Assembly: GCA_945859605.1 (NCBI GenBank)
Contig: OX243814.1
Location: 29,377,307 to 29,441,306, forward strand
Source of the DNA: Lumbricus rubellus
Taxonomy: Eukaryota; Annelida; Clitellata; Crassiclitellata; Lumbricidae
Direction of reading: 5' to 3'
Length of the DNA: 64,000 nt
Shown: positions 6,401-62,142 of the stretch, in pieces
How positions within the stretch are numbered: position 1 is the stretch's first letter
How the letters are laid out: each line of letters begins with the position of its first letter
Notes under the pieces: generated by a model
The model's database searches: none
Seen by the model: only the letters and a program-made list of their open reading frames with translations
What the model was told of the DNA's origin: nothing
Made by a program: the position numbers and the translations under genes

Positions 6401-6600
6401 CCCCATACACACACACACACACACGCACGCACAGACCCACACCCCACCCCCCCCACACCGCACACCCCACACCCCCCCCCCCACAACCCCCCCACACACA
6501 CAGAGCCAAAGGAGAGCTGATCCACAGCAGCCAAAATACATCTTGTACCACATGTTTCTCTCGAATGTTCGAGAGATGGGGGGGGGGGGGGGTGGGGTGG
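6366..6600. repeat. (AC)n, C-rich and G-run low-complexity tract
   Basis: A (CA)n run at 6,366-6,425 passes into C-rich imperfect CACACCC sequence up to about 6,505, and a G run lies at 6,579-6,592. The frames open through it are artefacts of composition. Confidence 0.9.
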
Positions 6601-6653
6601 GCAACACGCAAAATTGCTTTTGTCGCGTTCGAAGAAAAATTTGCTCAGCTCAC

Positions 6654-33178: not shown

Positions 33179-33519
33179 GGTTGAGTTTGTTTAGGATATG
33201 GTCGTTGTATTAGGAACATAAGCTATATTTGACTCGATAGAATTATACGGGGATTTAGACACTGATTAAACGATTTAGCTAAACGCATTGAAGCATTGCT
33301 AAAGATAATTTATGCTAGGATAGCGTAGGTGTTTCACGCTGCATAAAATAGGCCAGAGGGATTGTTTAAAGATCTGTTGTAGACTTAGTTAAACATACTT
33401 CTTCTATAGTGTCGCCTATAGTGAGGTCTAAGGTAATTATCTAGACTGAATAGACTAGCATTTGTCGCTTAGGGGATATTCTGTTTCAGTTTAGCCCAGC
33501 CGGCTAATTATATTGCAAC

Positions 33520-36500: not shown

Positions 36501-37278
36501 TAATGAAAGTACGGGATTCAGTCCATTTGAGATGATTTACGGAAGACCTGTGCGAGGATCCATGGCGATCTTGAAAGAACTGTGGACTAAAGACATTGCT
36601 GAACCAGAGGAGAAGACGACTTATGAGTATGTTGTCGATCTGAGGAATCGTCTTCAAGAGACTTGTCATTTAGCGCAAGAAAATCTGCAGAGAGCCGCTG
36701 ATAAATATAAACGTAATTTTGACAAGCATGCCAAGCCTCGAAAGTTTGATCCAGGCGATAAAGTACTGCTACTGTTGCCTACAGAGAGCAACAAACTGCA
36801 AATGCAATGGAAAGGTCCATTTCAAGTACTGAAACGATTCGGAGAAGCTGATTATGTAATCCAGTTTCCTCACCGAGCAAAGACGTTCCATGCGAACATG
36901 CTGAAACGCTATTATGAGCGTCCACCAGAGACAGAGAATAGATCGAGCGAGGAAGCCGTGAACGACGAAATGCAAGCTGTAGGAGCGGCTGTCGTCGTCG
37001 AAGAATTGTCTGATGCAGAGATGAGGATGACAGGTGAAGGAAATCTGCCACTGTTTAACAATCTGCAGAAAGAGACCTACAAAGATGTGGAGATAGGCCA
37101 TGGTCTGTCAGCAGATCAGAAGAAGGAGGTGGAAACACTCTTGGAAGAATTCCAAGACATCTTCAGTGATATGCTAAGAAGAATCAAACTAGTCGGTCAT
37201 CGGATTCAGCCTACGTTAAATGTCGCAGGGATGAAGAGGCCATACACTGTTAGCCCCAGGGGTGTATTTGGCTTCTGA
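33520..37278 (+). CDS. gag-pol: Gag-Pol polyprotein of Gmr1-like Ty3/gypsy element: gag-PR-IN-RT order, RT truncated by insertion
   Basis: 1,252 residues; the start follows GCAAC. Residues about 45-190 are a charged coiled coil of near-repeats (FELERQAKAVAEENALKK). About 276-397 is a SCAN-like gag domain (LLVKEQYLSVVSKEL). The zinc knuckle has C443, C446, H451 and C456. Protease has D579-T-G-C-S. Integrase has an N-terminal HHCC (H800, H804, C830, C833) and a core with D863, D922 and E958, i.e. D-D-35-E, then a GPY/F-type module (WKGPFQV...FHANMLKRY). Only after integrase does the reverse transcriptase begin (LLEEFQDIFSD). Ordinary Ty3/gypsy elements place RT before integrase; the reversed order defines Gmr1-like elements. 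The last 11 residues and the stop come from the inserted segment starting at 37,245. RNase H and nearly all RT are missing, so this copy cannot be autonomous. Confidence 0.93.
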   Translation: MEQLIALAERSGLKGPELLEFVEKHRADEEARQKRILEREERAADREMRKFELERQAKAVAEENALKKFELERQAKVDAEQNALKKFEMEQQAKAVAEENAMKKLDLERQATAEAEANAMRKLDLERQAKAEALDLERRAKAEADECAMRKLELERKMKQEAHEQALEMQKEQHEQSMALEKAKLEGKAVGLRQASIRSGSENAASEEDGEEEEEEERTSDFTVNARKGPKLPPFEDGKDNMDAYLRRFEKYASIRKWKRQEWAVYLAALLKGRALDVFARMPPEQYDDYDALKDALLKRYQMTEEGFHKRFNNCRPETGEAPQQFITRLESYLMRWIELAKVTQDFEGLKSLLVKEQYLSVVSKELSLFLRERAPKDLQELAKLAETYIEAHEGKSKQSYQSDYGEKEVRTEGKFLKPDFTKENERAGKKDQKRNGATDRPCFFCNRYGHSYNSCRFRMNTSHKAAGMQTSWKPRNARQNQKKKTENKKDKSASSAVDKKTHQTTATSTDPEGTLVKEGCDENAGQALKNLSDGEDVELRCGCKAHVIAEACRPGKYGTDMKTTIGYVGDQQVEVLRDTGCSSVVVARRLVKKNQMTGKHELCILIDKTTRKVPTAIIEVRTDYFTGKVKALCMKETLYDLVIGNISGAELRPRSFDKSTEVHEQDLLIDAEKEAGSTEEQLNVTSAVETRQMKEKARALPKQLRVPEFQNEVTLETLKKEQAEDSSLKKYWEYSTQKEATGTNDDDRIVRFDVERGLLYRKFRSPHHNFGDEVKQLVIPSRLRTRVMEIAHSSILGGHLGIHKTQERILSQFFWPGCYSDIGRYCRSCDICQRTLPKGRVQKVPLIKMPIIDTVFKRCVVDLIGPLPCSERGHRYILTLVDCASRYPECIALKQIDTCSVAEALLSIFSRMGAPLELLSDNGSQFTGAMMKEVGRLLSIKQLFSTPYHSQNCGLVERYNGVIKQMLRKMCAEKVRDWDRYLDPLMFAYREVSNESTGFSPFEMIYGRPVRGSMAILKELWTKDIAEPEEKTTYEYVVDLRNRLQETCHLAQENLQRAADKYKRNFDKHAKPRKFDPGDKVLLLLPTESNKLQMQWKGPFQVLKRFGEADYVIQFPHRAKTFHANMLKRYYERPPETENRSSEEAVNDEMQAVGAAVVVEELSDAEMRMTGEGNLPLFNNLQKETYKDVEIGHGLSADQKKEVETLLEEFQDIFSDMLRRIKLVGHRIQPTLNVAGMKRPYTVSPRGVFGF

Positions 37279-37315
37279 TATCCCACCCTCCGCCCTTTGG
37301 AGGGTGGGATATCAG
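37275..37315. repeat. Perfect 17-bp hairpin near the left end of the giant element
   Basis: CTGATATCCCACCCTCC, a 7-base loop, and the exact reverse complement. Further GGGTGGGATA and CCACCCTA motifs continue to about 37,400, and related GGTGGGATT and CCACCC motifs sit at 56,360-56,450 next to the right end. This is consistent with subterminal binding sites. Confidence 0.8.
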
Positions 37316-37429
37316 TGTTTTTCCACCCTAGCTTTGCCTACGGTGGGAAGTCGGAGAGCCGGAGTGGGTTTTCATACCCTAGGCCAAAGGGTGGGATATT
37401 TCTTCAATGATAAGCACTGAGCCACTCCT

Positions 37430-38590
37430 CGCTTCCCTCCTTCCTCCCTCCTCCCTCCTCCCTCCCTCCCTCCCTCCCTCCCTCCCTCCCTCCCTCCCTC
37501 CCTCCCTCCCTCCCTCCCTCCCTCCCTCCCTCCCTCCCTCCCTCCCTCCCTCCCTCCCTCCCTCCCTCCCTCCCTCCCTCCCTCCCTCCCTCCCTCCCTC
37601 CCTCCCTCCCTCCCTCCCTCCCTCCCTCCCTCCCTCCCTCCCTCCCTCCCTTAATCTTGAATTTGAAACACATTCTTTTAGCACGTGTTGTCACGTTTTT
37701 AATCTTGAATTTGGAAGACATTGGTTTTGTGTGCGTGCGTGTGTGTGTGTGTGGATATGCGTTCGCGCCCGAGTGTGTGCGTAATTCTCTTAATTTCCCT
37801 AGGTGGCGCCGCAAGAACTCTTATACACAGTACTAGTTAGAAGAATTTTAAGTGGGACGCCACCTATCGTTGAGGATTAAATCATGACCCCAAAATGTTC
37901 ACAATTAACCTAAACTCAAATATAGAATCTTTGGTGGCGTACCACATCGATCTTTTAATATCGATGGCGTACCACCGTACAATTAATCGTAATCGCGTTC
38001 TCCAAATTTCTATAGAGCCACTCTAAAGCCCTCCCTCCCTCTCTTCCTCCCTCCCTCCCTCCCTCCGTCCCTTCCTCCCTACCTCCCTCTCTCCCTCCCT
38101 CCCTCCCTCCCTCCCTCCCTCTTTCCCTCCCTCCCTCTCTCCATTTCTCCCTCACTCCCTCCCTCTTTCTCTTTCTCCCTCCCTCCCTCCCTCCCTCCCT
38201 CCCTCCCTTAATTTTGAATTTGAAACATTCTTTTAGCACGTGTTGTCACGTTTTTAATCTTGAATTTGGAAGACATTGGTTTTGTGTGCTTGTGTGTGTG
38301 TGTGGATATGCGTTCGCGCCCGAGTGTGTGCGTAATTCTCTTAATTTCCCTAGGTGGCGCCGCAAGGACTCTTATACACAGTACTTAGTCTAGTTAGAAG
38401 AATTTAAGTGGGACGCCACCTATCGTTGAGGATTAAATCATGACCACAAAATGTTCACAATTAACCTAAACTCAAATATAGAATCTTTGGTGGCGTACCA
38501 CATCGATCTTTTAATATCGATGGCGTACCACCGTACAATTAATCGTAATCGCGTTCTTTAAATTTCTATAGAGCCACTCTAAAGCCAAGC
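37430..38590. repeat. Tandem duplication of about 560 bp, each unit starting with a (TCCC)n run
   Basis: (TCCC)n at 37,430-37,650 and 38,030-38,208 are each followed by nearly identical sequence: TTGAATTTGAAACA, GCACGTGTTGTCACGTTTTT, CGCCACCTATCGTTGAGGA, up to TATAGAGCCACTCTAAAGCC. The first run is a nearly pure TCCC array about 220 bp long. It is not coding; frames open through it only because the unit has no stops. Confidence 0.9.
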
Positions 38591-38955
38591 GCAACTGACT
38601 CAATTCAAATTTGTACAGAAAAGTGAATTGAAATAAATGTTATCACAAGTCGACTTAAACTGACTTGTGATATACAGGAGCAAAATTTAAATTTATGACG
38701 TCAACTAACTAAGCCTAATATTCGTGATGCCAGCGATGTAGCTAGGGCATCATTTGAGCAGTCTTATAATTGTAGGCCTACTGATTTTGCAACAAACACA
38801 TGCGCGCGTGCACACACAAAAAACACAAAAACACACACGCAAGCACACGCACACAGCTCCTTGGATTTCAACTGCAATCTTTATTCCATTTGAACAAAGT
38901 GCACAATGATTGTCATAGAATTTTGTCATGGTGTAAACCGTCAGACTTAGACGTC

Positions 38956-39034
38956 TAGATGTGGACTACTCAGTGTACGCACACGTCGCACAGGCTGTGC
39001 GACGTGTGCGTACACTGAGTATAGTCCACATCTA
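38956..39034. repeat. Near-perfect hairpin, about 38-40 bp arms
   Basis: TAGATGTGGACTA, CTCAGTGTACGCACACGTCG, CACAG, one central G, then the reverse complement. The only difference is an extra TA in the right arm. It can form a stem of almost 40 bp with no loop, as a cruciform or as an RNA hairpin of miRNA-precursor size. Confidence 0.88.
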
Positions 39035-39904
39035 CGAAGCCTATCTTGTAGAACTGTAGCAAGCGTATTTAGCCTACATGATAGAATGGCGCATTTCTTC
39101 CGCTGCATTATCCGAAAAGTAGACCAGGTTCAGAAGAATGGGAGAAAATGATGAAACATTTGCTAAGAAATTGCTAAAGACTGATGATCATTCAGCGTTC
39201 AGTGTCATTTACACACACGCACACATAATTATATCCATATAGCCTAATAATATTATATACCCTGCATATATATATATATATATATATTATAATATTGTTC
39301 AGGTGCATGGTATTACAGAGAGTGTGAAAATGGGGAGAATGCAAGAAAGAACCTTGAGTTTTAGCTAATTCCCGACACCCTCAGTTTATCACTAGGCTCA
39401 AGTTGCCCCAGCTCTGAATAGGGATAAAAGGCTATGCGGGGGGGGGGGAGTGACTGGGTCAGTTCGTCTTGGGTGAAAGAGCGGGAGAGGGAGAAAGAGG
39501 ACTTTGCTTCCTCCTGCACTGCTGGACGCCGCTGCGTATGCATAGCTTCTTGTACCACGTTCGCGGATCGTCGTTAGACAGCGCCCGGTGTAGGCTGTGG
39601 GCTGCGGCTGGCCAGACAAGTGGAATGGGTTCATTTGGGTTCTGTGACCAAGCTCCATTGGTCCTGTTCTCTGGTCCATAAACTTAATGAACCGTCATTG
39701 TCTGCATTGCTCGACCGATGTCGAGCTATAAATCGTAATCGTAATCTTCAAATTTCTTAACTCGACATTACATACTCACCTGTGAGACGAACTATCACTA
39801 GCATAACTTGTATATATTATTACCTAACTGCTTAACTGTCAGAGTGAATGATTGAGGCGATCATCTTAGTTATGAAACCTCGTTAATAAACGGTATATCA
39901 GTCA

Positions 39905-40200
39905 GTTCAAATTTCTACAGCGCCACTCGAAAGCCATAGACAGGGACAAGGACAGGAACAGAGAGAGGGAGAGGGACAAGGACAGCGACAGGAACAGACA
40001 GAGATAGAGACACAGACAGACAGAGATAGAGACAGAGAAAGGACATTAACAGGAACTGTGAAAGAAAAACGGAGAGGGACAGGGACATGAACAAGAACAG
40101 GGACGGGGCAGGACCATGGACATGGACAGGGACAGGCACATCGAGAGATGGACAGGGAGAGGGACAGTGACAAGGAGACGGAGGTGGAGACGGAGAGATT
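39905..40200. repeat. GGGACA/GACAGA degenerate tandem with a tail-like start
   Basis: The stretch begins CAAATTTCTACAGCGCCACTCGAAAGCC, which resembles 38,005-38,030 and 38,565-38,590. It continues as imperfect AGGGACAGGAACAGAGAGA repeats. (TA)n lies at 40,626-40,652. Confidence 0.7.
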
Positions 40201-40284
40201 AGGTTTTGCTGCTTGATGTTTTATATATTTGTCTTCTGTACGAAGCGCAATTCGTTAACCATCTTGCATCTTGCATCTAGTAGG

Positions 40285-40622
40285 CCTATGACATGCAGCT
40301 GGTCTAGGTACATTGGTCACATAAAGAAAACATATGTATGCCACATGGCATCTTGAGGGCTTACAGATATGCCTATTATTTGTATCATTTTAGGTGACTG
40401 TATCTTAGTCTGGGGAATAATGTCCTACCCACACTAAGAATTATAACGATTATTCCCGGGGTAAAATGTCCGTTTATCCATCTTGAAGACCAGCTTATTT
40501 ACCATGGCTATGTCTATAACCAATAAGTGACATGCAACTGGTCTAAGTATGCTGGTTACATCACGAAGTCATATGGATACTATAAAATTGTCATCTTGAT
40601 GGTCAACATAATCTGCTTTCTG

Positions 40623-40656
<34 letters not shown>

Positions 40657-41155
40657 GTTTAATGTGAAAAAACAGGTTGATAAGACTGCAACTCGGTTGC
40701 ATGGAAGGGAAGTGCTACGGGTTACACAGTCGCTTGTTGAGAAGGCACTTATAGAGGGCTCTTGGAACAAAGTTTTTATTGTCGTTTGGTGGCAACTCAA
40801 AGTTATAGTAAACCATTACCGGTAAACCATATAGGCCTACAAGTAAGAGCCATATATATCTGTCGCCGTCACTGTGTCTGTCTGTCTGTCTGTTTCTGTC
40901 TGTCTATCTCTCTCAAACAGCTTCAAGCAATGAAACTCTGTCTCTCTGAGGTACCTATGCATGGCATATGACATCTTGATGGTCAGCATATCTGCTTCTG
41001 TATGAAATACGTATTGGTAGAACATATTATTTGAACCACATGGAATGCAAATGGTCTAGATATGCTAATAACATGAAGCACACATATGGATACCATAATG
41101 TCATTTGGATTTTGGAATGGATGATTAGCAGATTTTCCTTCTGTATGAAATAATG
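40285..41155. repeat. Diverged direct repeats inside the giant element
   Basis: Related blocks begin near 40,285, 40,528 and 41,040, with a partial one near 40,960. Each has GACATGCA(A/G)CTGGTCTA, an ATATGGATAC-like stretch, a CATCTTGATGGTCA-like stretch and CTTCTGTATGAAAT. A (CTGT)n run lies at 40,873-40,910. Confidence 0.65.
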
Positions 41156-41189
41156 CGTAATGGTAAACTAACTTGAATCTATTTGACAT

Positions 41190-41395
41190 GGAAGAAACAA
41201 ACAGACAGACAAAAAGACAGACAGGCAGGTAAACAGACAGTCAAGCAGACAGACAAACAAGCAGACGCACATGAAGGAAGACAGACAGACAAAGCAGGTA
41301 AACAGACAGGCAAGCAGACAGACAGGCAAGCAGACAGACAGACAAACAGACGCAGAGGAAGGAAGAAAAGCAGACAAGCAGGTAAAACACATTAA
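41190..41395. repeat. (ACAG)n/(AAGC) microsatellite
   Basis: An imperfect run of ACAGACAGACAAACAAGCAG. Low complexity. Confidence 0.85.
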
Positions 41396-43588
41396 TTTGA
41401 ATGCAGGTAGCTTTCATTCACAGCATCTGACACGTTAATGAGCCGTACATAGCATAGGACGAACGCATAGGCCTACATAAGCAGGAACAATTTAATGCAA
41501 TCGCCGATATGCATGACTAAAATGTGACTTAAGAAAGGATCCACACATTAAGTTTCATCTCACCGGATTTTGACCTGTCTTCTCTAGCAGCTGGCCTAGT
41601 GCACCGGTCTTTTGCTAAAAACTGAAAACTGTCCTTTAGCCAATCTGACGCTTTGAATCTTGACCGGGAACTGGTTTTCTCTTTGCAGATGCTGTTCAGA
41701 CTAATTATTACCCGTGATCAAGATGGGTCTTTACCTTGCCTCAGTAAAACCTTTGACCTGTCTCCAATATATCTTGTGATTTGCGTTTCCCTTGTGAACA
41801 TGCTGCATGCGATTCCTGTCGCAACTCGGAGTTATTGGGGCTTCAGCATAATTATAATAAGCCTAATTCTAATATTTAGTTTCTGCGTGCGCCTGATGCA
41901 CGGTCATTTTTTAAGTGCAGCAAGGTTAAAAACCTGGCATTGTAATTGGGTGCATGAATATTTAAGTTAATACGAAATGGCCAATTAACATGAAATGGTA
42001 GAAATGTTTTTTATCATGTCACTCTAATATGGTTTCTAGCCAGCTTACTTGCTTTTTAGCGATGAAGATGGTTGCAATTCCATTTAGGCCTAATTGAGAA
42101 TTGACCCTATTGATTTTCTTTAAGAATATTTGCCACGCAAATTTATTTATTTCGAAAAGTCAGGTTAATTTAAGTCTATAAAAAATACTTTGAAGGATAG
42201 CCTAATGCAATTAATTGGAGACCGAAAACGTAGTTGGCTAATAACCGCTAACTGAATTAATTGCATAATTTTTATCTGGCTGCCTACTCCAGCTCTGACT
42301 ATGTCAGGCGCTTAACTGTTCTTAATATGAAAATTAGTCATTATTGCCAGATGGTAGCTAAATATACATGATTGATACTGTAACAGTATCGGGTTGAATG
42401 CATGGCCAATAATTGCAACAATATGAGTTTTCGGCCTTATTACAGTTGTCAGATGCGGGGGTATTGCGCTATACAATTTATATTGCATTGAACGAAGCCT
42501 TGATCTTGCTGGGACGAAGATGCCGGAAATGCTTTCTTTCTCCAAGTGATGGCGGATGACATGGGCGGCATGGTGGGCGGTTATCAATTTCGGGAAAATT
42601 CTGATAAATCAACTTAAACAAGTAGGTAATTTTATTCGTATATTCACAGGACATATTCCCATATGTTGTGGTATGGCGAATTAATATGGGCACGGAAATT
42701 GTCTTTTATGTATGAACTTATGGTGGTTTACAAGCATGCGTGCGTTATGTAGCCTAAATGGAAGACTGCATGCTTCGGGGTCGGATTAATGCTATGTTCG
42801 ACATCTTCGGCCGAACAGAGGCCCACACTTTAGGGGCTCCGCACATGCAATAGGAATATATTTTCATCATTGTGAATTATAATTTTAAAAATATCTGAAC
42901 AACAAATTGCCAAATTTTCGAATACTACTAGTGCTTTAACATAGGCTACAACTTTTGCGCCTGTGTGAAGCTCTTATTGTAGTTTCCATAACCAAAGTCA
43001 GAAGACGGGGTGAAAAAGCTCACATAAGTAGGATGGAGCTTGAGCCAGGGTATAACTACTGGTCGTAAGCGCGAAAATATATGTTAGTTTCCAATCAGTG
43101 GCGGCGCTACAACATGGAAAATCAATGCCCTGGTAAAAACCATTTGACCTAGTCGTTATTTAGCCGCAAAATTGCCAGAAATTTTCCCTCCCAAGAATTT
43201 ATTTGGGGCATATAATAGTTAATGCAGTGTTTGCTTCTGCGAGTGCACTGTCTTTGCTCTGGTTAGAAGAAAATGTCTGACCATGAATCATTTTAAAATT
43301 CATAATCCGTAAAGATGCATAGGCCTACTTTTAAACTAGACTGGAATGTTAAAAGGCCTGCTGATATTGTAAGAAACAAAAGTCACAATAATATACGTAT
43401 TGTCTTTTAATACGAAACTTTTTTGTGTAATTTTTGTGTGCTTCTGTCAGGTTGTGGCACCCACAGCTTTATTGAACAGGGCCCAACGTTTGTTAATCAG
43501 TCCCTGATGCTATATTATTTTGTTTTAGATGTTTTTTTAATGATTTCCAAACATTCATTGAATTTTTGTGCTTTTCATGTGTTTTCAG
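41396..43588. other. T-rich stretch of the giant element without recognised genes
   Basis: On the plus strand this stretch is T-rich, unlike the DNA left of 31 kb, which would suit introns of a plus-strand transcript. Acceptor-like sites occur (for example CTTTGCAG before 41,689), but no exon pair is convincing. Confidence 0.4.
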
Positions 43589-43729
43589 TGATATTCTGGG
43601 TTGAATTTCCTGGAAACTATGAACATTTTCAACGGAGATTGTTTTACGGTTCTACGGTATCGTCGACTTTGTCCTTGATGGAAATGGACAAATCAGTCTG
43701 TGCTCTATCCTGTCAAATTCTTCCGCCAT
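43589..43729 (+). CDS. Candidate exon inside the giant element
   Basis: The acceptor CATGTGTTTTCAG precedes it and the donor GCCAT|GTGAGT follows. The open frame (phase 1 in, phase 1 out) has about 46 residues: IFWVEFPGNYEHFQRRLFYG, then STVSSTLSLMEMDKSVC and ALSCQILPP. It matches no family I know. Support comes only from splice signals and an open frame. Confidence 0.33.
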
Positions 43730-44334
43730 GTGAGTTAGTGAGTCTCTAGTTGCACATGATTACGGTATTTGAGTAGCAATTTGTCTGATCAGTTAAATTA
43801 AATTGTGGAAATAAAAATACCAGTTTTAGTCAAAGTATATGTAGAATTTGTTTAGTCAGGCACGTTGTCATTAATTCGTTAAGGTGGGTGTTGAACTGGT
43901 CAATGCTCGTACAAATTTCTTCAGCTTTGTCAGCCTTGGCATACGGGGCAGGTGTCCAATTCTCTCCCTCACCGTCTCATCTACCCACCAACAGTGTATG
44001 CATTTTATCAGACTTGGCAAGGGCTTCGGAAAGAATAGAAATCTGGAACAAGTTATTTTTTGGCTATGTAAAGGCTTGAGCCCGAACCTAATATTCGACA
44101 GTCCTGTGTGCTTACTACTGCATTTAAAGTATCTACTTTAATATTATTAATTTAATTTGATTAATTTCTTTAAATTGACAGTGTACTCGTTTAATCTAAG
44201 TTGACCAGGGGTTGTGCGGGAACTGAAAACTTGAACAAGTTTGTTGGCTACGTATGGATTTTAGCCCTGACCTATTAAGGTCTGATGTGCTAACCATTGC
44301 AATTTGGAGCATAGTATTTTATTTTTTTAATAAC

Positions 44335-44475
44335 ATTATTATTGTTATTGTTTTTCCCAGAGATTTTAATGATTCCTGAGAAAAAATTATTTTAGGACTT
44401 AAAAAACGAATCTCAGAGAAATCAGGCCTCGTCCCAGGTTTAGCAACCATTGTTATTGTTACGGAGCTAATATTA
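44335..44475. repeat. Dispersed repeat with a second copy at 52,300-52,440
   Basis: Shared parts are TTATTGTTTTTCC, GAGAT.T.AATGAT.CCT, TTAGGA.TTAAAAA.CGAATCTC, CGTCCCA.GTTT and GCAACCATTGTTATTGTTAC. The two copies lie on either side of the 27-bp array, both in the giant element. Confidence 0.7.
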
Positions 44476-45939
44476 TTTTTACCCAAGGTACCTAGGATCC
44501 CTCGGGATTAAAAAAAATTATGCTTGTAGCTGGTTTTGTGTGTATTGTTATTATTATTATTATCATTATTACTATTATTGTTGTCATTGTTGCTGTTGTT
44601 ATTATTTGTGATTCTTTGTAGTGGCATAATCTTTTATTAAGATTTGTGGCTTGTGTGTACCGCTATTTAATTTGACTATAAAGAGTACACTGACCGTATA
44701 CTATTTAAGAGAAGACTGATCATTTATGCAGACTTTTGCAGAGGCTGAGAAATGATATTTGCTGACATTTATTACCCATAACCCCATAATTGCTGCACTG
44801 ATTAAGTGCTCTTTTATTTATAAATATTGTTATTTGTGGAGGTCACGATGTTGTGGTTTGTGTTGTGTTGGTGGTCGTGGTGCCGGTTGTATTGCTGTTA
44901 GTCTTAGAATTATTAGATGCAACGTAGCTGGTGGTGGTGTTATTGTTGTTATTAATATTATATTACTAAGTACTGATATTGTTAGTTATTTTTTATAACT
45001 TTTTACCAATTTCTGCTTTAAGGGAGGGCTGGCTTAATGGATTGCTGTTCTAGCCTTCCATTGCTTGTACTATTAGTACTGTTGTTGGTGGCTCTGGGGG
45101 GTGGTGACAGAGCCAGTTTTCGTGTTATGACTACAAAAGTATGTTGTTTTTTGTTCGGTTTCGTTACATATGAAAGAAACGATTAATCTAAAAAATCTAT
45201 TAAAACATTTAACTCAACTGATTTAGCTTGCAATCTAGTGTTTTGTATGTTCTGGGAATTATCTGAATGAAATCATTTTGTTTTTAGGACTCGATGCAGA
45301 TTTTTAAAAATCTGGAATTTTAGAAGGGTGATAGCACCTGTCAAACGGTCAAACATGCCACAGCAACTGTTGCATTATGGACATGCGTAGTAGGTATTTC
45401 ATATTTATCCCTTATTATTGGTATTGACATCAACATTTATTTTTATGCATTTATTCAGCGCCACTATCTTGTGGCGGCGGTGGAAAATTATCTCTTATCT
45501 TGCTACAAAACCCTTTTAATTTCTTTTCGATTTGTTTTGCTATGATGCACGTAACCACATTGCATCTAGACATTTGCTTAAACTTTTTCCCATAGCTTTG
45601 TTTTGATCTGTATGTATATCCGAGCCTGTCACCAGTATTGTGTCTCTTCTTGATGTCTCAGCAGTGTTTGCTACTTGTCAGTTTTCCCCATCTTAATAAT
45701 TCTTTATATATGCAGCACTTTTGTAAACATACTTAGAATGTTTTTCATTTAGTGTCGCTATTCATAGATGCATAATAACAGTTAGTTGCATTTGTCTAGC
45801 ACAACGAGCAACATGTATACATGTATACATTGTATAGTTCCTGTCACTGCAGTGGTTTACTAATCTATAATTGCACTTGCAATGAATTTTTAAAAATATT
45901 TGTGCAATGCTAAGTAATGTGCATGAACGTGGTTATAGA

Positions 45940-46090
45940 GATTGTATTGTATCTGGCTATTTATAAAGCACTTCTCCGAGCAAGAGCCTTTCAGACGTGC
46001 TCCCAGTGTGTGCAACCGTGAGAGAAAAGGCAGGTTTTGGGACGAGAAAAGAACGATTGGAGCTCACCAGATACAATGATGGAAAGAACT
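45940..46090. mobile_element. Interspersed repeat, family B
   Basis: Second copy of the repeat at 29,170-29,285, continuing with GCAGGTTTTGGGACGAGAAA and AGCTCACCAGATACAATG, then a G run at 46,097-46,110. As it occurs both inside and outside the giant element, it is a general repeat of this genome. Confidence 0.65.
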
Positions 46091-46950
46091 GATGGTGGGG
46101 GGGGGGGGGGAGGAGTCACTATTGAAATTCATTATTGCCATGGCATTGCATAGGGTCTGTGATTTTACTAACTGAAAATAGTTTTTTTGTAGAAGTCGAG
46201 ATGTTGTACGAACTCTGGCAATTGAGAATGCTGAACAAGTAGATGGCCATAACTATATGTACATGTATGTGTGGTTACATCTTCGAAAGCATCGTTAGTA
46301 TCTCAATTTTAACCAAACATTGTTGGTATAGCCTTCATTAATGTTATGCATTTATGAAGCGCCATTGTCGTATGACAAGTATCAATTGATGACACTGAGC
46401 GACTGGTAACCAAGGTGTAACGTTTCTGCATGGCAACCATTTCCTCGATGTCTCAAACATGTACTGTATTTTTGTGTCTCCTAGTTCTACAGGGCTAGTG
46501 TTACAGGGATAGTTTCCTTAATTAGTCATGTGCAACCTAAAAAAATTTCTATGCTTTGGTTTCATTGAGCAACATTATATAAAATTTTATCAAAATATTC
46601 ATGCAGTACTTATAAACTATCCATGTTTTCTTCACATAAATTATTTCGTATATTGTTTTGCTATTAATCTTTCGTAACATAATTAGCTTAGAACTAAAAG
46701 AGCAGTAGCCTACTGAAGTTCACACTAGCCAAACAATGGTAAGTTTTAGAGGCCTCTATTGCAGATAATGTGTAGTACTGTAGAGTTGCCTACAGATTTG
46801 TCTGTTCTTTTATTATCAATATGATTAAGCGCTATTTTATTCTTATGGCACCACTTTATTATATGTTTTGCTGTACTATAGATACTAAGATTGTATAGCA
46901 TGACATGTGCTGTCGATATCCAACACGCAAAATTTTTTATGTTTTTCTAG

Positions 46951-47033
46951 AAACTTCTATCTGATCAGTCATCAAGCCTAAGTTATGATGTCGGCTTCCA
47001 GAAGATCAGTCAAGTACGACAGACTAGGTTGAG
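46951..47033 (+). CDS. Candidate exon ending exactly where the 27-bp minisatellite starts
   Basis: A strong acceptor (TTTATGTTTTTCTAG) and donor (TTGAG|GTAAGG) enclose 83 nt. One frame is open: KLLSDQSSSLSYDVGFQKIS then QVRQTRL. It ends in phase 2, which fits the candidate exon at 54,589. No domain recognised. The repeat array begins at the donor. Confidence 0.45.
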
Positions 47034-50000
47034 GTAAGGGCCTCAGTTTATTCACAAGGGTGAATGGCCTCAGGTTATTCACGAGGGTGAAGGGCCTCAG
47101 TTTATTCACGAGCGATAAGGGCCTCAGTTTATTCATGAGGGTTAAGGGCATTAGTTTATTCACGAGGGTTAAGGGCATCAGTTTATTCCCGAGCGCGAAG
47201 GGCACTAGTTTATTCACGAGCTTTAAGAGCCTCAGTTTATTCACAAGGGTTAAGAGCACTAGTTTATTCACATGCTGTAAGGGCCTCAGTTTATTCACGA
47301 GGGTTAAGGGCATCAGTTTATACACAAGTGTAAAGGGTCTGAGTTTATTCATGAGGGTTAAGGGTATGAGTTTATTCACATGCTGTAAGGGCCTCAGTTT
47401 ATTCACGAGGGTTAAGGGCATTAGTTTATTCACGAGGGTTAAGGGTATGAGTTTATTCACGAGCGCTATGGGCCTCAGTTTATTCACGAGGGTTAGGGAC
47501 CTCGGTTTATTCACGAGGGTTAAGGGCATCAGTTTATTCACGAGCGTGAAGGGCACTAGTTTATTCACGAGCTTTAAGAGCCTCAGTTTATTCACAAGGG
47601 TTAAGAGCACTAGTTTATTCACATGCTGTAAGGGCCTCAGTTTATTCACGAGGGTTAAGGGCATTAGTTTATTCACGAGGGTTAAGGGCCTCAGTTTATT
47701 AACGAGCGCTTAGGGCCTCAGTTTATTCACGAGGGTTATGGGCATCAATTTATTCACGAGCGGTAAGGGCATCAGCTTGTTCACAAGCACGAAGGACACT
47801 AGTTTAATGACGAGCCCGTGGGGCACTGGTTTATTCACGAGGGTTAAGGGCATCAGCGTTAAGGGCATCAGTTTATTCACGATAGTCAAGGGCCTCAGTT
47901 TATTCACGAAGGTTAAGGGTATCACTTTATTCACGAGGGTCAAGGGCATTAGTTTATTCACGAGCGATAAGGCCATCAGTTTATTCACGAGCGATAAGGG
48001 CCTCAGTTTATTCAGGAGGGTTAAGGGCCTCCGTTTATGCACGGGTGTAAAGGGCCTCAGTTTATTCACGAGGGTTAAGGCCTCAGTTTATTCACGAGGG
48101 TCAGGGCCTCAGTTTATTCACGAGGGTTAAGGGTATCAGTTTATACACGGGTGTAAAGGGCCTCAGTTTATTCACGAGGGTTAAGGGCATCAGTTTATTC
48201 ACGATAGTCAAGGGCCTCAGTTTATTCACGAGCGATAAGGCCATCAGTTTATTCACGAGCGATAAGGGCATCAGCTTGTTCACAAGCACGAAGGACACTA
48301 GTTTAATGACGAGCCCGTGGGGCACTGGTTTATTCACGAGGGTTAAGGGCATCAGCGTTAAGGGCATCAGTCTATTCACGATAGTCAAGGGCCTCAGTTT
48401 ATTCACGAGGGTTAAGGGTATCACTTTATTCACGAGGGTCAAGGGCATTAGTTTATTCACGAGCGATAAGGCCATCAGTTTATTCACGAGCGATAAGGGC
48501 CTCAGTTTATTCAGGAGGGTTAAGGGCCTCCGTTTATGCACGGGTGTAAAGGGCCTCAGTTTATTCACGAGGGTTAAGGGCCTCAGTTTATTCACGAGGG
48601 TCAGGGCCTCAGTTTATTCACGAGGGTTAAGGGCCTCCGTTTATACACGGGTGTAAAGGGCCTCAGTTTATTCACGAGGGTTAAGGGCCTCAGTTTATTC
48701 ACGAGCCATAAGATCATCAGTTTATTCACGAGCGATAAGGGCCTCAGTTTATTCACGAGCGATAAGGGCATCAGTTTATTCACGAGTGATAAGATCATCA
48801 GTTTATTCACGAGCGATAAGGGCCTCAGTTTATTCACGAGGGTTAAGGGTATCAGTTTATTCACGAGGGTTAAGGGTATCAGTTTATTCACGAGCGATAA
48901 GGTCATCAGTTTATTCACGAGGGTTAAGGGTGTCAGTTTTTTGACAATAGTCAAGGGCCTCAGTTTATTCACGAGGGTTAAGGGTATCAGTTTATACACG
49001 GGTGTAAAGGGCCTCAGTTTATTCACGTGGGTTAAGGGCATTAGTTTTATTCACGAGGGTTAAGGGCATCAGCTTGTTCACAAGCACGAAGGGCATTAGT
49101 TTATTCACGACCCCGTGGGGCACTAGTTTAGTCACGAGGATTAAGGGCATCAGCGTTAAGGGCATCAGTTTATTCATGAGCGCGAAGGGCACTAGTTTAT
49201 TCACGAGGATTAAGGTCATCAGTTTATACACGGGTGTAAAGGGCCTCAGTTTATTCACGTGGGTTAAGGGCATCAGTTTATTCACGAGCACAAAGGGCAC
49301 TAGTTTATTCACGAGGGTTAAGGGCATCAGTTTATTCAAGAGCGTTAAGGGCATCAGTTTATTCAAGAGCGTTAAGGGCATCAGTTTATCCATGAGCTCT
49401 GAGGGCATCAGTTTATTCACGAGCGCAAAAGGCACTAGTTTATTCACGAGGGTTAAGGGCATCAGTTCATTCAAGAGCGTTAAGGGCATCAGTTTATTCA
49501 CGTGAGTTAAGGGCATCAGTTTATTCATGAGCGCTGAGGGCATCAGTTTATTCACGAGCGCAAAGGGCCTCAGTTTAATCACGAGGATTAAGGGCATCAG
49601 TTTTTTCGAGAGCGTTAAGGGCATCAGTTTATTCACGAGCACAAAGGGCACTAGTTTTTTCACGAGGGTTAAGGGCATCAGTTTATTCAAGAGCGTTAAG
49701 GGCATCAGTTTATTCAAGAGCGTTAAGGGCATCAGTTTATTTATGAGCTCTGAGGGCATCAGTTTATTCACGAGTGCAAAAGGCACTAGTTTATTCACGA
49801 GGGTTAAGGGCATCAGTTCATTCAAGAGCGTTAAGGGCATCAGTTTATTCACGTGAGTTAAGGGCATCAGTTTATTCATGAGCGCTGAGGGCATCAGTTT
49901 ATTCACGAGCGCAAAGGGCCTCAGTTTAATCACGAGGATTAAGGGCATCAGTTTTTTCGAGAGCGTTAAGGGCCACAGTTTATTCACGTGGGTTAAGGGC

Positions 50001-52262
50001 ATCAGTTTATTCATGAGCGCTGAGGGCACTAGTTTATTCATGAGGAATTAGGACATCAGTTTATACACGGGTGTAAAGGGCCTCAGTTTATAAAACGGGT
50101 GTAAAGGGCCTCAGTTTATTCACGAGGGTTAAGGGCACTAGTTTATTCACGAGCGCTAAGGGCCTTAGTTTATTCACGTGGGTTAAGGGCATCAGTTTAT
50201 TCACGAGCGCTGAGGGCCTCAGTTGATTCACGAGCGCGAAGGTCACTAGTTTATTCACGAGGTTTAAGGGCACTAGTTTATTCACGAGGGTTAAGGGCAT
50301 CAGTTCATTCAAGAGCGTTAAGGGCATCAGTTTATTCACGTGAGTTAAGGGCATCAGTTTATTCATGAGCGCTGAGGGCATCAGTTTATTCACGAGCGCA
50401 AAGGGCCTCAGTTTAATCACGAGGATTAAGGGCATCAGTTTTTTCGAGAGCGTTAAGGGCATCAGTTTATTCACGAGCACAAAGGGCACTAGTTTATTCA
50501 CGAGGGTTAAGGGCATCAGTTTATTCAAGAGCGTTAAGGGCATCAGTTTATTCAAGAGCGTTAAGGGCATCAGTTTATTTATGAGCTCTGAGGGCATCAG
50601 TTTATTCACGAGTGCAAAAGGCACTAGTTTATTCACGAGGGTTAAGGGCATCAGTTCATTCAAGAGCGTTAAGGGCATCAGTTTATTCACGTGAGTTAAG
50701 GGCATCAGTTTATTCATGAGCGCTGAGGGCATCAGTTTATTCACGAGCGCAAAGGGCCTCAGTTTAATCACGAGGATTAAGGGCATCAGTTTTTTCGAGA
50801 GCGTTAAGGGCCACAGTTTATTCACGTGGGTTAAGGGCATCAGTTTATTCATGAGCGCTGAGGGCACTAGTTTATTCATGAGGAATTAGGACATCAGTTT
50901 ATACACGGGTGTAAAGGGCCTCAGTTTATAAAACGGGTGTAAAGGGCCTCAGTTTATTCACGAGGGTTAAGGGCACTAGTTTATTCACGAGCGCTAAGGG
51001 CCTTAGTTTATTCACGTGGGTTAAGGGCATCAGTTTATTCACGAGCGCTGAGGGCCTCAGTTGATTCACGAGCGCGAAGGTCACTAGTTTATTCACGAGG
51101 TTTAAGGGCACTAGTTTATTCACGAGCACAAAGGGCACTAGTTTATTCACGAGGGTTAAGGGCATCAGTTTATTCAAGAGCGTTAAGGGCATCAGTTTAT
51201 TCAAGAGCGTGAAGGGCATCAGTTTATCCATGAGCTCTGAGGGCATCAGTTTATTCACGAGCGCAAAAGGCACTAGTTTATTCACGAGGGTTAAGGGCAT
51301 CAGTTTATTCAAGAGCGTTAAGGGCATCAGTTTATTCAAGAGCGTTAAGGGCATCAGTTTATCCATGAGCTCTGAGGGCATCAGTTTATTCACGAGCGCA
51401 AAAGGCACTAGTTTATTCACGAGGGTTAAGGGCATCAGTTCATTCAAGAGCGTTAAGGGCATCAGTTTATTCACGTGAGTTAAGGGCATCAGTTTATTCA
51501 TGAGCGCTGAGGGCATCAGTTTATTCACGAGCGCAAAGGGCCTCAGTTTAATCACGAGGATTAAGGGCATCAGTTTTTTCGAGAGCGTTAAGGGCATCAG
51601 TTTATTCACGAGCACAAAGGGCACTAGTTTATTCACGAGGGTTAAGGGCATCAATTTATTCAAGAGCGTTAAGGGCATCAGTTTATTCAAGAGCGTTAAG
51701 GGCATCAGTTTATTCATGAGCTCTGAGGGCATCAGTTTATTCACGAGCGCAAAAGGCACTAGTTTATTCACGAGGGTTAAGGGCATCAGTTCATTCAAGA
51801 GCGTTAAGGGCATCAGTTTATTCACGTGAGTTAAGGGCATCAGTTTATTCATGAGCGCTGAGGGCATCAGTTTATTCACGAGCGCAAAGGGCCTCAGTTT
51901 AATCACGAGGATTAAGGGCATCAGTTTTTTCGAGAGCGTTAAGGGCCACAGTTTATTCACGTGGGTTAAGGGCATCAGTTTATTCATGAGCGCTGAGGGC
52001 ACTAGTTTATTCATGAGGAATTAGGACATCAGTTTATACACGGGTGTAAAGGGCATCAGTTTATAAAACGGGTGTAAAGGGCCTCAGTTTATTCACGAGG
52101 GTTAAGGGCACTAGTTTATTCACGAGCGCTAAGGGCCTTAGTTTATTCACGTGGGTTAAGGGCATCAGTTTATTCACGAGCGCTGAGGGCCTCAGTTGAT
52201 TCACGAGCGCGAAGGTCACTAGTTTATTCACGAGGTTTAAGGGCACTAGTTTATTCACGAGC
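47034..52262. repeat. 27-bp minisatellite, 5.2 kb, with higher-order repeats, open on both strands
   Basis: About 190 units near GGGCATCAGTTTATTCACGA plus GGGTTAA. As 27 is a multiple of three and the unit lacks stops in one frame per strand, both strands stay open for up to 360 codons: plus SLFTRVKGI-type and minus LTLVNKLMP-type nonapeptides. A variant block with TGAGGAATTAGGACATCAG recurs at 50,041, 50,879 and 52,014. The spacings are 838 and 1,135 bp, i.e. 31 and 42 units plus one base, showing higher-order duplication. No start, signal or domain supports translation. Confidence 0.92.
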
Positions 52263-52982
52263 GGAATAGATATATAGTCTCCAGAGACTATTATTATTAA
52301 TTTTTTTTATTGTTTTTCCATGAGATATCAATGATCCCTCAGGATGTAAAAAATTTATATTAGGAGTTAAAAACGAATCTCCGATAAATCCGTCTTCGTC
52401 CCAAGTTTCGCAACCATTGTTATTGTTACTGTTATTGGTAATATTATTAATACAACTTTTTTTCAACAAAATCTGGTTGGATAAAAGAACCGCGGAAGGC
52501 CACGGCATTATTATTATTATTATTATCTCAAATTTTTGTTTTAACCAAACATTATTAGTATAGCCTTCGTTATTATTGCTCATTTATTTCTCAGATATAT
52601 TGTGAAGTTTTGACCCATGAATGGCTTTGTCAGTTGTTACTATGCTCTTACAACGAACCCTGACTTCTAGAGTTGACTTTTGAGGTCCACGTGTATGCAC
52701 AGCCATCAGATAGAGGCAGGCTTTTTTATTTTGTTATTGTGAGTTATGACAACGATTATATTATGGGTAGCTGTCTGTTTATTTTGAGTTGTAGTATAAT
52801 ACTAAATGATCCAAACTACGTTGAAACATGACTTCAAAGCCATTTGTGATGCGACCTGGGAAAACCAGGCAGATGTCGCTAGATAGCATTTTGAGATAAT
52901 TAATGACCGATTTTTGTGAAATGGAGTCAGAGGTCGATTTTTACTTTCTGACTTTGCTATCATTTAGTTTGGGCTCTCTCTT

Positions 52983-53037
<55 letters not shown>

Positions 53038-53150
53038 GTATTGTTTTGCAACTGACCATTTATGAAGTGTTTCTCGCAGCAAAGGCCTTTCAGAAGCACT
53101 CCCCTTGTTCGCTCTCTGTCTCTCCCTCGCTCCCTCCCTCCCTCCCTCCC

Positions 53151-53206
<56 letters not shown>

Positions 53207-54588
53207 ATCTCTCTGTGCACTTCTCGCAGCAAGATCCTATCAGAAGCACTCTCATTGCTCATTCTGTCTGTCTGTCTCTCTCTCTCTGTCTCTCTCTCTG
53301 TCTCTCTCTCTGTGTCTGTCTGTCTGTCTCTCTCTCTTGCTCTCTCTCCCTCCCTTTCTCTCAGCAGCCATTTTTAAAAATGGCCTCCGGTTTACAGATT
53401 TTAAATTATCTCAGCTTCTAGTTTGCTTAGAATCGTAATCTTGGTGTCCAAACATACATAGTTCAGGGCGAGGATTCGAACAAAGTCATTGAAAATGTTC
53501 CCACGACTTCATTTAAAAATGGCTGCTGAGAGAAAGGGAGGGAGAGAGAGCAAGAGAGAGAGACAGACAGACAGACAGACACACAGACACACAGAGAGAG
53601 AGACAGAGAGAGAGACCGAAATTGGGAGTTTTTAATATCTCGGCTTCCAGGGGGCAGATGATTGGGCTTGAATTATAGTAGTCCTGACTCGGTGGACACA
53701 AAAGTCAGTCTGATCCAGAGAAGAGAGAGGCCAATGAGAAAAATGCAGAAGTAAGAGAATGAATATAATATAATGAGATATTTAGGCACAAGTTCTAGTT
53801 TGGGCTTGAGGGCCAAAGCAAGGGCTTTATATTGTAAGTTAATGTGCTGTTAGCTGCTTTAGGCCTTAATAAGATCATATAAGAATATTCTTTAATTGAC
53901 CAATTGCTATCTGCATTTTGGTGTACTGGCATGGTATAAATAATAAACAAACGTACATCATTACTATTACCAATCAATGTCAAAATTCCAAGTTAAAAAA
54001 ATCAATAAGTATAATATATGTTCTTTTACTGACCAACAGTTTATACTGCTCTTTGATTTATATTGTAAGATATTTAAATATGATAAAGCATTTTCATTAA
54101 ACATGATTTCCTCGTTAGGTTGTCCGCCCTAGGAATAATTCTGTCATGTAGTCTTGGCCGCATGGAATAAGGCTAGGGCCTGATTACACTGTTGGTGGAG
54201 AGTTCTAGAATCTAGATGATTCAAAAATGGAATGGCCTTCTGATGGGATGTAGTATCCCAAGACTAAGAAAATTATTTGCTAATGTTTGCTAATCTATGG
54301 TTGTGTCTCAGGCTTCATTCAAGACTGCTGATTCTAACAGATTTATCTTTGCTCTAAATTTCAAAGTGTAAAAATATAGTCTATTTTATTCTTCATATAG
54401 GATAGATTTGTCTTGCTTCACTGGAAAAGGATTACTGAAATGCATATGACTACTACTATCATTTGTAAATTATAACTTTTAAGTTTTATATGAAAAATCA
54501 AGACTTATTTGTCTGATTGTGCATAGTGTGCAAGCACGTAATTCAGCATTGCTGACCGAAATTTGTTTTTTGCTTTTCATGTTAACAG
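52263..54588. other. Stretch after the minisatellite: repeats, no recognised gene
   Basis: (CTGT)n/(CTCC)n microsatellites lie at 52,977-53,038, 53,120-53,205 and 53,265-53,360, with a G/A-rich counterpart at 53,525-53,620. TTTAACCAAACATT(A/G)TT(A/G)GTATAGCC at about 52,540 also occurs at about 46,310, so these copies bracket the array. Inverted copies of TTTAAAAATGGC(C/T)(T/G)C(C/T) lie at 53,370 and 53,513. Confidence 0.55.
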
Positions 54589-54640
54589 GTCGTTTCATCA
54601 CTTGACAAGCTCAGCTACTAAGCCAGCTTCATCTGCCTGA
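54589..54640 (+). CDS. Candidate terminal coding exon in the giant element
   Basis: The acceptor TTTTCATGTTAACAG is good. Joined in phase 2 to the exon at 46,951-47,033, the frame gives SFHHLTSSATKPASSA and a TGA at 54,638. What follows would be a 3' UTR. No AATAAA was seen close by; ATTAAA occurs near 54,926. The phase match is the only link, so this is a hypothesis. Confidence 0.33.
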
Positions 54641-55267
54641 GCTCCTCTCCTTGTCGCCCCACAGACTCTACACTTAAAGTTGAAGTCTCACCACTTCAAG
54701 AATTTGCACCCTAATCCATTTAATATTTCAAGAAACTTCTTCTTCAACAAGATCCGCTGTAGCCTCTGCTCGGCCTCCTGTCTGGCAACCATTGTCTGGC
54801 CTCTAATGGACATAGATCTCTGGACAATTAATCTGTTACAATGCAGTGCTCGTGAATAGGTTGTTGCCCGGTGCTCAGAAGTGGACTAGCGCTTTCGAAA
54901 TTTTGAGTTTGGCAGTTGTTCAAAGCATTAAATACAACACTGTTTAAGGTTTTTAATATGATATTTCCTCGTGCTTTTTGATCGGCTGGAACAATATCCA
55001 CTTGTTATTCGATCGACCTGCTCAGTGGACTGTTTGAGCATTTACGAGTTTCTGGAATACACAAGTTTATCAAAAGTCAAGACCAAAATCAATTTCACAA
55101 CCATTTCTCAAACTTGTCAGCCTAATATGATGACTCATGTTTTTCAAAGCCAATGACTTTGATGTTGACGTTTGCTTTTTAAATTTCATGTGTGTTTATT
55201 ATTTAAATTATTATTTTGATTCTAAAAACGACAGGTGTTTGTGAATTTAAGATTCTTATGTGACGTA

Positions 55268-55317
55268 ATGTTGTATTATAATGTTCACATGTTGTTAAAA
55301 TAGCTAGAATGGTGGTC

Positions 55318-55379
<62 letters not shown>

Positions 55380-55704
55380 TGCCAAGTATTCTGATTTTAA
55401 AATTCCTACATGACAATTGTTTTATAAATTGTTTATAAATCACTTCACGAAGCTGTGCCTGAGCACCTGTGCAATTGCTGCACTGGATCTCATTCCTCCG
55501 CGTCCATTCTTTGGCTCCAGTCATTTGAGAGAACTGATGTATTTGGAGGATCGGGATGCACTTGGGTGTTTAAATACACCGAAGGGTGGATTAGAACACC
55601 TTGGTTGAGGGTGTTTATAATTCACCCATACTTTTTTTGTTTTTATATATAATAGACCACCATTCTAGCTATTTTAACAACATGTGAGCATTATAATACA
55701 ACAT
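55268..55704. repeat. Long inverted repeat, about 59-bp arms, around (TA)n
   Basis: Left arm ATGTTGTATTATAATG...GAATGGTGGTCTATTATA (55,268-55,327) and right arm (55,645-55,704) are reverse complements with about one mismatch. Between them are a 50-bp (TA)n run and about 250 bp, whose end holds the first degenerate units of the 47-bp array. It could be a foldback element inserted in that array. Confidence 0.85.
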
Positions 55705-56345
55705 CCTTCGTTGAGGGTGTATTTAATTCACCCGTAGGGTGGGTTAGAGCACCTTCGTTGAGGGTGTATTTAATACACCCCTAGGGTGGGTTAGAGCACC
55801 TTCGTTGAGGGTGTATTTATTACACCCCTAGGGTGGGTTAGAGCACCTTGGTTGAGGGTGTATTTATTACACCCCTAGGGTGGGTTAGAGCACCTTGGTT
55901 GAGGTTGTATTTATTACACCCCTAGGGTGGGTTAGAGCACCTTGGTTGAGGGTGTATTTATTACACCCCTAGGGTGGGTTAGAGCACCTTGGTTGAGGGT
56001 GTATTTATTACACCCCTAGGGTGGGTTAGAGCACCTTCGTTGAGGGTGTATTTATTACACCCCTAGGGTGGGTTAGAGCACCTTGGTTGAGGGTGTATTT
56101 ATTACACCCCTAGGGTGGGTTAGAGCACCTTGGTTGAGGGTGTATTTATTACACCCTTAGGGTGGGTTAGAGCACCTTGGTTGAGGGTGTATTTATTACA
56201 CCTCTAGGGTGGGTTAGAGCACCTTGGTTGAGGGTGTATTTATTACACCCCTAGGGTGGGTTAGAGCACCTTGGTTGAGGGTGTATTTATTACACCCCTA
56301 GGGTGGGTTAAAACACCTTCGATGAGGGTGTATTTTTTACACCCC
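55705..56345. repeat. 47-bp subterminal tandem array near the right end of the giant element
   Basis: About 13-14 units: GGTTGAGGGTGTATTTATTA, then CACCCCTAGGGTGGGTTAGAGCACCTT. Each unit has two small palindromes, GGGTGTATTTATTACACCC and CACCCCTAGGGTG. The GGGTGTATTT motif also lies 16 bases inside the left terminus. Arrays of this kind beside the ends are typical of transposase-binding regions in large CMC-type elements. Confidence 0.9.
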
Positions 56346-56480
56346 AAGGGTGTAATGTAGTAGGTGGGATTCCCCACCCCGTAGAAAAGGTGGGATTTCA
56401 CTCCCTTACATAGAAAAAAGGGTGGCCTATAGAGACCACCCTAAAAGGTCGGATATCCGACGGTTTTCAGTAACAGTGTA

Positions 56481-56832
56481 TCCTGTGCCATAGGCTATGA
56501 GACAGAAGCTGGACAAGAAAATCGAGGACTAGATTAGGGGTGATAATATTGGGAGGGAGTAAGTCGGATGGATCATCAGTCTTTGATCTATCATCAAGGA
56601 GCTAATCCAGTAAATGGGAGTTTAGTATTTACTGGGTTTTAATTTTGCAGCCGTATTTCTTTATTATACGCTTTTAAAAAAGGGTTTGAAAATGTGGGGC
56701 CGATTTTTTAAGCCGCCATCTGTAGGCCTAAATAGGAACTAGGATAAGTAAACCTAGATATTAACAGGGCAATCGTTTTAGTTTTAGTTGTAAAGAAAAG
56801 CTAAGTTAGTTTTCTCTTAAGTGGGGGGCCAT
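56481..56832 (+). other. RT remnant and 3' untranslated part of the retrotransposon, with polypurine tract
   Basis: From 56,479 about 20 codons continue the RT frame (AMRQKLDKKIED, flanked by in-frame stops). After that RT and RNase H are absent and the rest looks untranslated. AGTGGGGGGCC directly before the 3' LTR (about 56,820-56,830) is the polypurine tract priming plus-strand DNA synthesis. About 2 kb of RT and RNase H coding is therefore deleted as well as interrupted. Confidence 0.75.
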
Positions 56833-57893
56833 TGTCACGAGTTGCCCTTGTAAATAGTATTGGGCCCATTGTTGTAGACCTATGCATTATATACCTATAT
56901 TGTGTTATGTCGTATATAATAGTATTATGTGCTTAAATGACAGTTTGACAATAGTATATAGATATAACTATAATAATCTAGCTTATATAATATATCGATG
57001 GTCGTCGATGGTCGTTGGGTCCAAAAGGTGTGTCGGGGGTAAAGGTCATCTGTCTGGAAGGCAGATAGGCCTATATAGGCAAGAGAACGGACTGTCTGGG
57101 GGTCAGTAGTCGGAGGAGAGTCAGTCGGCGGTCAGTCGTCGGAAGCTGTCGTCGAGGAGTCATCAGTCGTCGGTCGGAGATGCGAAGTGGGCATGCACGC
57201 TGAACTTTGCTGAAGGACGTTCGAGCGTAGGACAACGCACAACGGTGCAAGAAGGTGAATACTGGGCACAACGGTGCTACCAGGCGAAGTCCGAGCACAA
57301 CGGTGCTACTACCAGACGAGGACGGTCTAGAAGGGGCGGACGCTTTCCCGCCATTTTCTCCGTCGCTTTCCGCCACTTCGTCGCAACTTCTCTACCACGT
57401 GACCACGTCTATGCTAGACGTGGGCGGTGTCTGAAGAAACGGGCACTCCTCTACAAGACGGGACCAGCGGTCGTAGCTGGAACGCCAGCAGGACGGGAAC
57501 TCTCGACGCTGGGTTCGAGAACGGACCAACGGACGACTTCAGAACCAACCGGACCAGTGAACCGACCGAAGCCCTTCGCTGCGTAACAGGACTTCTTCAC
57601 ACCTGCAGAAACTGTCTCCATGCGAACGGAAACGTGAGTGGGGGCGAAGTTTTGTTGGGGGGTCTGGGGGAGGGCACGACCATCGATTAGGGCTCTATAG
57701 GCGTAGCCTATTAACGATACTGTTTTTGCTATATATGTAACTATGTCTTTTAGTTTAATTTCAGTTGTCTTTTTATCTGAATAATTTTCTAAACGAGTTC
57801 ATGCTTTGTTTTCTAGTATTTCGATGACAATATTCTAGACACCCTTTCCTTAATAGGCTAGGGCTAACTCGCCATTTAAGATAACTCATGACA
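56833..57893 (+). mobile_element. 3' LTR of Gmr1-like retrotransposon
   Basis: 1,061 bp, same length and ends as the 5' LTR, one base different by eye. It is followed by the target duplication GTGAG at 57,894-57,898. Near-identity means the insertion is recent, since LTRs are identical at integration. Confidence 0.95.
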
Positions 57894-61192: not shown

Positions 61193-61339
61193 ATGAAGCA
61201 GAGTTCTATCCACAAAGCTACTGCATTATTAACACTCTGCTTCAGTCAACGTACCGGACGGACAATCGAATGAATAGTCTGTTAGTTGGACGGATGGATG
61301 GATTGACCATTGGATAGATAGATTGACCATTGGATGAAT

Positions 61340-62120: not shown

Positions 62121-62142
62121 ATTGGATGGATATGGAATAGAG

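Follow-up and report, generated by a model that had tools for sequence, protein, structure and literature searches.

The locus and its question

How a block of almost twenty kilobases came to interrupt the reverse transcriptase (RT) frame of a young retrotransposon is the question raised by a 64-kb stretch of the Lumbricus rubellus genome (assembly GCA_945859605.1, contig OX243814.1, positions 29,377,307 to 29,441,306, forward strand). This whole stretch is referred to here as the window, and positions without a prefix are counted from its first letter. A first-pass annotation, made from the sequence letters, had placed mirrored ends and TA flanks at 37245 and 56478, and they lie exactly there. 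The block between them (37245..56478, + strand, 19,234 bp) is almost certainly a giant transposon with a TA target and very likely a non-autonomous one. It is probably a complete copy of a low-copy, 15-20 kb and apparently non-coding cut-and-paste family that would be moved in trans by an EnSpm/Mirage-type helper.

The left tip, CACTGTTA (37245-37252), and the right tip, TAACAGTG (56471-56478), form a terminal inverted repeat (TIR) of 8 bp, beyond which the two ends are dissimilar to each other. A TA lies outside each tip (37243..37244 on the left, 56479..56480 on the right), and TACACTGTTA and TAACAGTGTA occur once each on the + strand of the window. The host is a Ty3/gypsy-type retrotransposon with long terminal repeats (LTRs) of 1061 bp at 32097..33157 and 56833..57893, both on the + strand, which differ at 1 of 1061 positions; GTGAG precedes the left LTR and follows the right one as a common 5-bp target duplication. 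Its open frame (33508..37244, + strand) carries SCAN, H2C2 and integrase-core domains and is broken at the first conserved RT motif.

When the host flanks are joined at a single TA, they translate to GMKRPYPVP*AMRQKLDKKIED, that is, through the RT motif with one in-frame stop. The related protein P0001, which is 96% identical to the host protein over query residues 600-1140, reads KRPYPVPYAMRQELDKEIDD over the join, and with one TA kept the two align without a gap across 38 residues (68% identity there). P0001 thus represents an empty site at the protein level, from which it follows that the TA was duplicated upon insertion. The first-pass annotation had also stated that the RT frame resumes directly after the right boundary. 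This holds at the join itself, where a stop follows after three codons and another twelve codons later, but most of the RT is absent from the host copy. At E 0.01, the three forward frames of 56479-57600 yielded no Pfam domain; together with the stops in the frame and the start of the right LTR at 56833, this indicates that the rest of the RT and the RNase H are missing from this copy. Since the LTRs are nevertheless near-identical, the host may be a defective copy that relied on others for its spread, or a deletion may have occurred beside the insertion (56481-56832). Among the best 120 of 1017 matches, the named relatives of the host protein come from marine invertebrates, echinoderms included.

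Copies of the family in the genome

Four complete copies were found, on C1, C4, C14 and C21, each with both ends in a fixed order and TA on both sides; the window copy has the same orientation as the three others, which measure 15,494 bp (C21), 14,979 bp (C1) and 19,818 bp (C14). The left tip is CACTGTTA in all four, and the right tip is TAACAGTG in three, with TTACAGTG (7 of 8 bases) in the C14 copy. The first-pass annotation had suggested searching for pairs of the two ends separated by no more than about 19 kb; two further loci show this at about 15 kb and one, at 19.8 kb, nearly does. As the paired ends recur at three further loci, they mark a real giant transposon family and not an assembly join, and the annotation's proposal of a giant transposon is borne out.

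Genome counts of ends and copies are lower bounds. A left-end probe of 371 bp gave nine rows at seven separate places and a right-end probe of 181 bp gave seven places, and the complete copies account for four of the seven in each case. For a third probe, 1.5 kb of the right region common to the copies, 40 of 1514 first-look candidates were scored; among these, full-length matches were seen at the four complete copies only (the other three at 94-97%), while the remaining 38 of its 42 rows cover only a short dispersed repeat inside the probe at 71-89% identity. Finally, a 17-base left-tip pattern with TA gave seven matches, five of them at left-end places already known, and its reversed control gave none.

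Organization of the ends

The blocks common to all four copies are 37301-37422 and 53737-56478, and the body between them is a patchwork in which large segments have been gained or lost. When the three other copies are pooled, their matches of at least 80% identity account for 91.1% of the window copy; singly, the C1 copy covers 83.6%, the C21 copy 31.6% and the C14 copy 15.6%. The left end (37245..37422, + strand) consists of the CACTGTTA TIR and a subterminal region, of which 37301-37422 is present in all complete copies. Near its tip lies a hairpin (CTGATATCCCACCCTCC...GGAGGGTGGGATATCAG, 37275..37315) with 17 Watson-Crick pairs, one G-T pair and a 5-nt loop; other sequence occupies this position in the C1 and C21 copies. 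Folded as DNA, the left 196 nt reach a z-score of -3.68, and 1 of 200 shuffles was equally stable.

The common right-end block (53737..56478, + strand) spans 2.74 kb. It includes a subterminal tandem array of a 47-bp unit (55705..56352, 13.8 copies, 97% matches) that bears the GGGTGG / CCACCC motif. The right tip region (56330..56478, - strand) presents the CACTGTTA TIR, read on the opposite strand, and after it several short hairpins; it folds with a z-score of -4.57, none of 200 shuffles being equally stable. In Rfam, no match reached the gathering scores over 37000-57000.

All four complete copies have, at either end, clusters of CCCACCCT/AGGGTGGG that form direct and inverted subterminal repeats. 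For the motif GGGTG[GT]/[AC]CACCC, 50 of the 66 sites in the window copy fall within 500 bp of the left tip or 1.2 kb of the right tip. Similar end-clustering is seen in the C21 (48 of 56), C1 (49 of 57) and C14 (70 of 99) copies, counted over 500 bp on the left and 1.0-1.3 kb on the right, with 22 further C14 sites inside a G-rich nested insert. These counts refer to a motif chosen by eye from the ends, without a shuffled control, and a large part of the right-hand cluster comes from the 47-bp array.

Coding capacity

The first-pass annotation had recognized no transposase, and the profile scans agree with it. Six-frame Pfam searches at E 0.1 over 37245-47035 and 52264-56478, which is the window copy outside its satellite array, returned no family, and therein no DDE transposase with C(2)C and H(3-4)H motifs. 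The scans were extended to parts of the other copies, namely L012 4455-10000 and L013 1-2900 for C21, L018 100-10000 and L019 1-4800 for C14, and L015 2901-6600 for C1, and no transposase was found in these parts either. Their only clear match is an RT of the long interspersed nuclear element (LINE) type in the C14 copy (RVT_1, E 8.6e-31), the recovery of which demonstrates that the scan works. The remaining matches are weak or of low complexity; besides RVT_1, PT and Yae1_N in the C21 copy exceed the Pfam cut-off. In the open reading frames (ORFs) common to the copies, changes are not consistently enriched at third positions, and of the 167 gaps in their alignments 29 have lengths that are multiples of three (12 alignments, which are not independent).

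Comparison with known transposons

CACTA/EnSpm elements have CACTR-type tips, and the tips of the giant element are alike. The canonical target duplication of EnSpm/CACTA elements is 3 bp, whereas the giant element duplicates a 2-bp TA, and no transposase gene was found in its 15-20 kb body. Because of the TA duplication, the element is not filed as a canonical EnSpm. Mirage elements duplicate TA. The large Polinton/Maverick elements encode DNA polymerase B, integrase and capsid, and no Pfam family for any of these was detected in the six frames of the window copy beyond its satellite array.

In PMC8978399, plant CACTA elements are described with subterminal repeats and captured satellite arrays, and the giant element resembles these CMC transposons in the density of its subterminal repeats, both direct and inverted, and in the satellite array of its body. 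The CMCT clade is delimited, in PMC12730594, by CA...TG tips together with a duplication of 2-5 bp; the giant element has CA...TG tips and a 2-bp TA duplication, the combination of ends expected for CMC/CMCT elements (EnSpm, Mirage, Chapaev, ESTA). It shares the CA...TG tips with both Mirage and ESTA and, by the same source, the TA duplication with ESTA. ESTA elements are fungal and carry a transposase and a TET/JBP gene according to that text (PMC12730594); unlike them, the giant element has no detected gene, and the likeness is by ends only. Repbase files Mirage and Chapaev under EnSpm, as PMC4455052 records. Regarding size, the giant element falls into the class of Polinton/Maverick elements, with 5-10 ORFs, and of the En/Spm elements of Chondrus crispus, with 16-20 kb and 4-5 ORFs, as given in PMC6431247; it differs from both in that no gene was detected in the scanned stretches except the LINE frame of the C14 copy. 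Superfamily placement was made from the ends, the target site and the subterminal repeats alone, which make kinship with CMC plausible. The first-pass annotation had thought the family possibly undescribed; no description of it was recognized among the papers searched, including under the word CACTGTTA, and Repbase and Dfam were not compared.

Proposed mechanism and alternative explanations

From the short paired TIRs, the duplicated TA, the dense subterminal motifs and the fixed orientation of the copies, cut-and-paste transposition by a transposase supplied in trans is inferred. A transposase made elsewhere would bind the repeated CCCACCCT/AGGGTGGG sites packed at both ends and cleave at the CACTG tips, and the excised DNA would then insert at a TA dinucleotide, duplicating it. 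The most likely source of this activity would be an EnSpm/Mirage-type transposase of the CMC/CMCT clade, and a CMC-like helper is somewhat favored. A wider and only tentative proposal would see here a giant non-coding transposon lineage with satellite and repeat cargo, mobilized by a trans-acting, TA-targeting, CMC-like transposase undescribed from animals or by a domesticated host transposase.

Several observations weigh against this reading. Three of the seven left ends are unpaired (C4:42702785, C4:35868030 and C10:34805449); 30 kb was read behind each of the six left ends other than that of the window, and in these three cases no matching right end was present, so they were rejected as complete copies. 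Likewise, three of the seven right ends (C6:986162, C9:1601076 and C10:1552758) have no family left end upstream, within 20 kb for C9 and C10 and 30 kb for C6. The C6 locus, with a good right end, was thus dismissed as a complete element, as were C9:1601076 and C10:1552758; a CACTGTAA word lies 2.8 kb from the C9 end, and family sequence does not stand behind it. Among the five unpaired ends that retain the tip, TA adjoins two (C4:35868030 and C6:986162) and is lacking at C4:42702785, C10:34805449 and C9:1601076, so that TA is constant among complete copies only. The two tip-pattern matches outside the known left-end places, C5:6195073 and C10:9812979, were discarded as copies or helper, since the 300 bases read behind each tip are by eye unrelated. 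An autonomous partner was not found; PF02992 was the only profile searched against the genome, and helpers of the Tc1/mariner and Harbinger types were not searched. The PF02992 search gave no match among 5 scored candidates and is uninformative, as the profile was also silent in 14 of 14 control genomes. Duplication of TA, moreover, is typical of Tc1/mariner elements also.

This last point leads to the idea that the same giant non-autonomous element is served by a helper from a different superfamily with a TA target, either Tc1/mariner or a TA-duplicating relative of PIF/Harbinger (PHISTA, for instance), which is considered unlikely. TA is the observed duplication and the standard target of Tc1/mariner, but the CACTG...CAGTG tips, the 8-bp TIR and the dense direct and inverted subterminal motifs suit a CACTA-like element better than Tc1/mariner. 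Tc1/mariner elements, in addition, usually have longer TIRs and short bodies. For the Harbinger side, related fungal families that duplicate TA are described in PMC12730594.

A second alternative holds that the element is autonomous and that the transposase of one or more copies escaped Pfam through divergence or through interruption by introns. The scans used profiles only and covered the non-satellite portion of the window copy and parts of the other three, which leaves such a gene some room. It is nonetheless improbable, given that the six-frame scan of the window copy was empty at E 0.1, that the same method caught the LINE-type RT, that the shared ORFs lack a consistent codon-position bias and that the copies differ through large interior gains and losses. 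An assembly artefact or a chance pairing of unrelated ends, for which the dissimilarity of the ends beyond 8 bp and the low-complexity DNA of the interior might speak, can be dismissed almost entirely, as the ends occur together with shared interiors at three more loci and the insert has parts of one retrotransposon on either side, whose LTRs are near-identical and are bounded by a single 5-bp target duplication, contrary to a join of unrelated loci.

Age of the insertion

Over a 1.5-kb shared segment, the window copy differs by substitutions from the C1 copy at 1.48%, from the C21 copy at 1.74% and from the C14 copy at 3.30% of positions, and all six copy pairs fall within 1.48-3.56%; other common blocks are 89-97% identical (BLAST, gaps counted). 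The host LTRs, in comparison, differ at the single position mentioned above. In this relative comparison, in which no mutation rate is assumed, the jump into the retrotransposon took place long after the copies had split, and a low-copy family has therefore been moving recently. The insertion is recent, as the first-pass annotation had supposed for a mobile unit in a young host, and this very young retrotransposon provides a clean clock for the jump. An element of 15-20 kb that encodes nothing recognizable, carries a satellite and moved very recently suggests a natural system for the mobilization of long cargo, and represents a possible means of transporting satellite arrays and dispersed repeats to new sites.

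Further features of the element and the window

The body of the window copy contains a TCCC microsatellite (37434..37651), a direct duplication of two copies of about 558 bp with 93.5% identity (37472..38586, from self comparison) and a 5.2-kb array of a 27-bp satellite unit (47035..52263). This array makes up about 27% of the window copy and is also present in the C1 copy, beside a 200-N gap. A dispersed repeat lies at 53869-54181, within the conserved right region. In the C14 copy, a nested foldback-like insert with long inverted ends and a G-rich core was noted (L018, about 6060-6660), and the LINE-type RT frames are located at about 3450-5230 of L019.

Elsewhere, the left-end fragment at C4:42702509-42702785 (L002) is 96% identical to the left end of the window copy, has no TA at its tip and is embedded in GC-rich, tandem-looking DNA on either side. 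Within the window, a TAACAGTG and CACTGTTA word pair near 17.0-17.6 kb was rejected as a second element, because the order is wrong, the tips lack TA and no similar subterminal DNA is apparent by eye. Past the host retrotransposon, the only Pfam match at 61229-62282 is YrvL, which is probably due to low complexity; long open frames overlap there on both strands, and the GC skew is strong, 0.488 at 61-62 kb.

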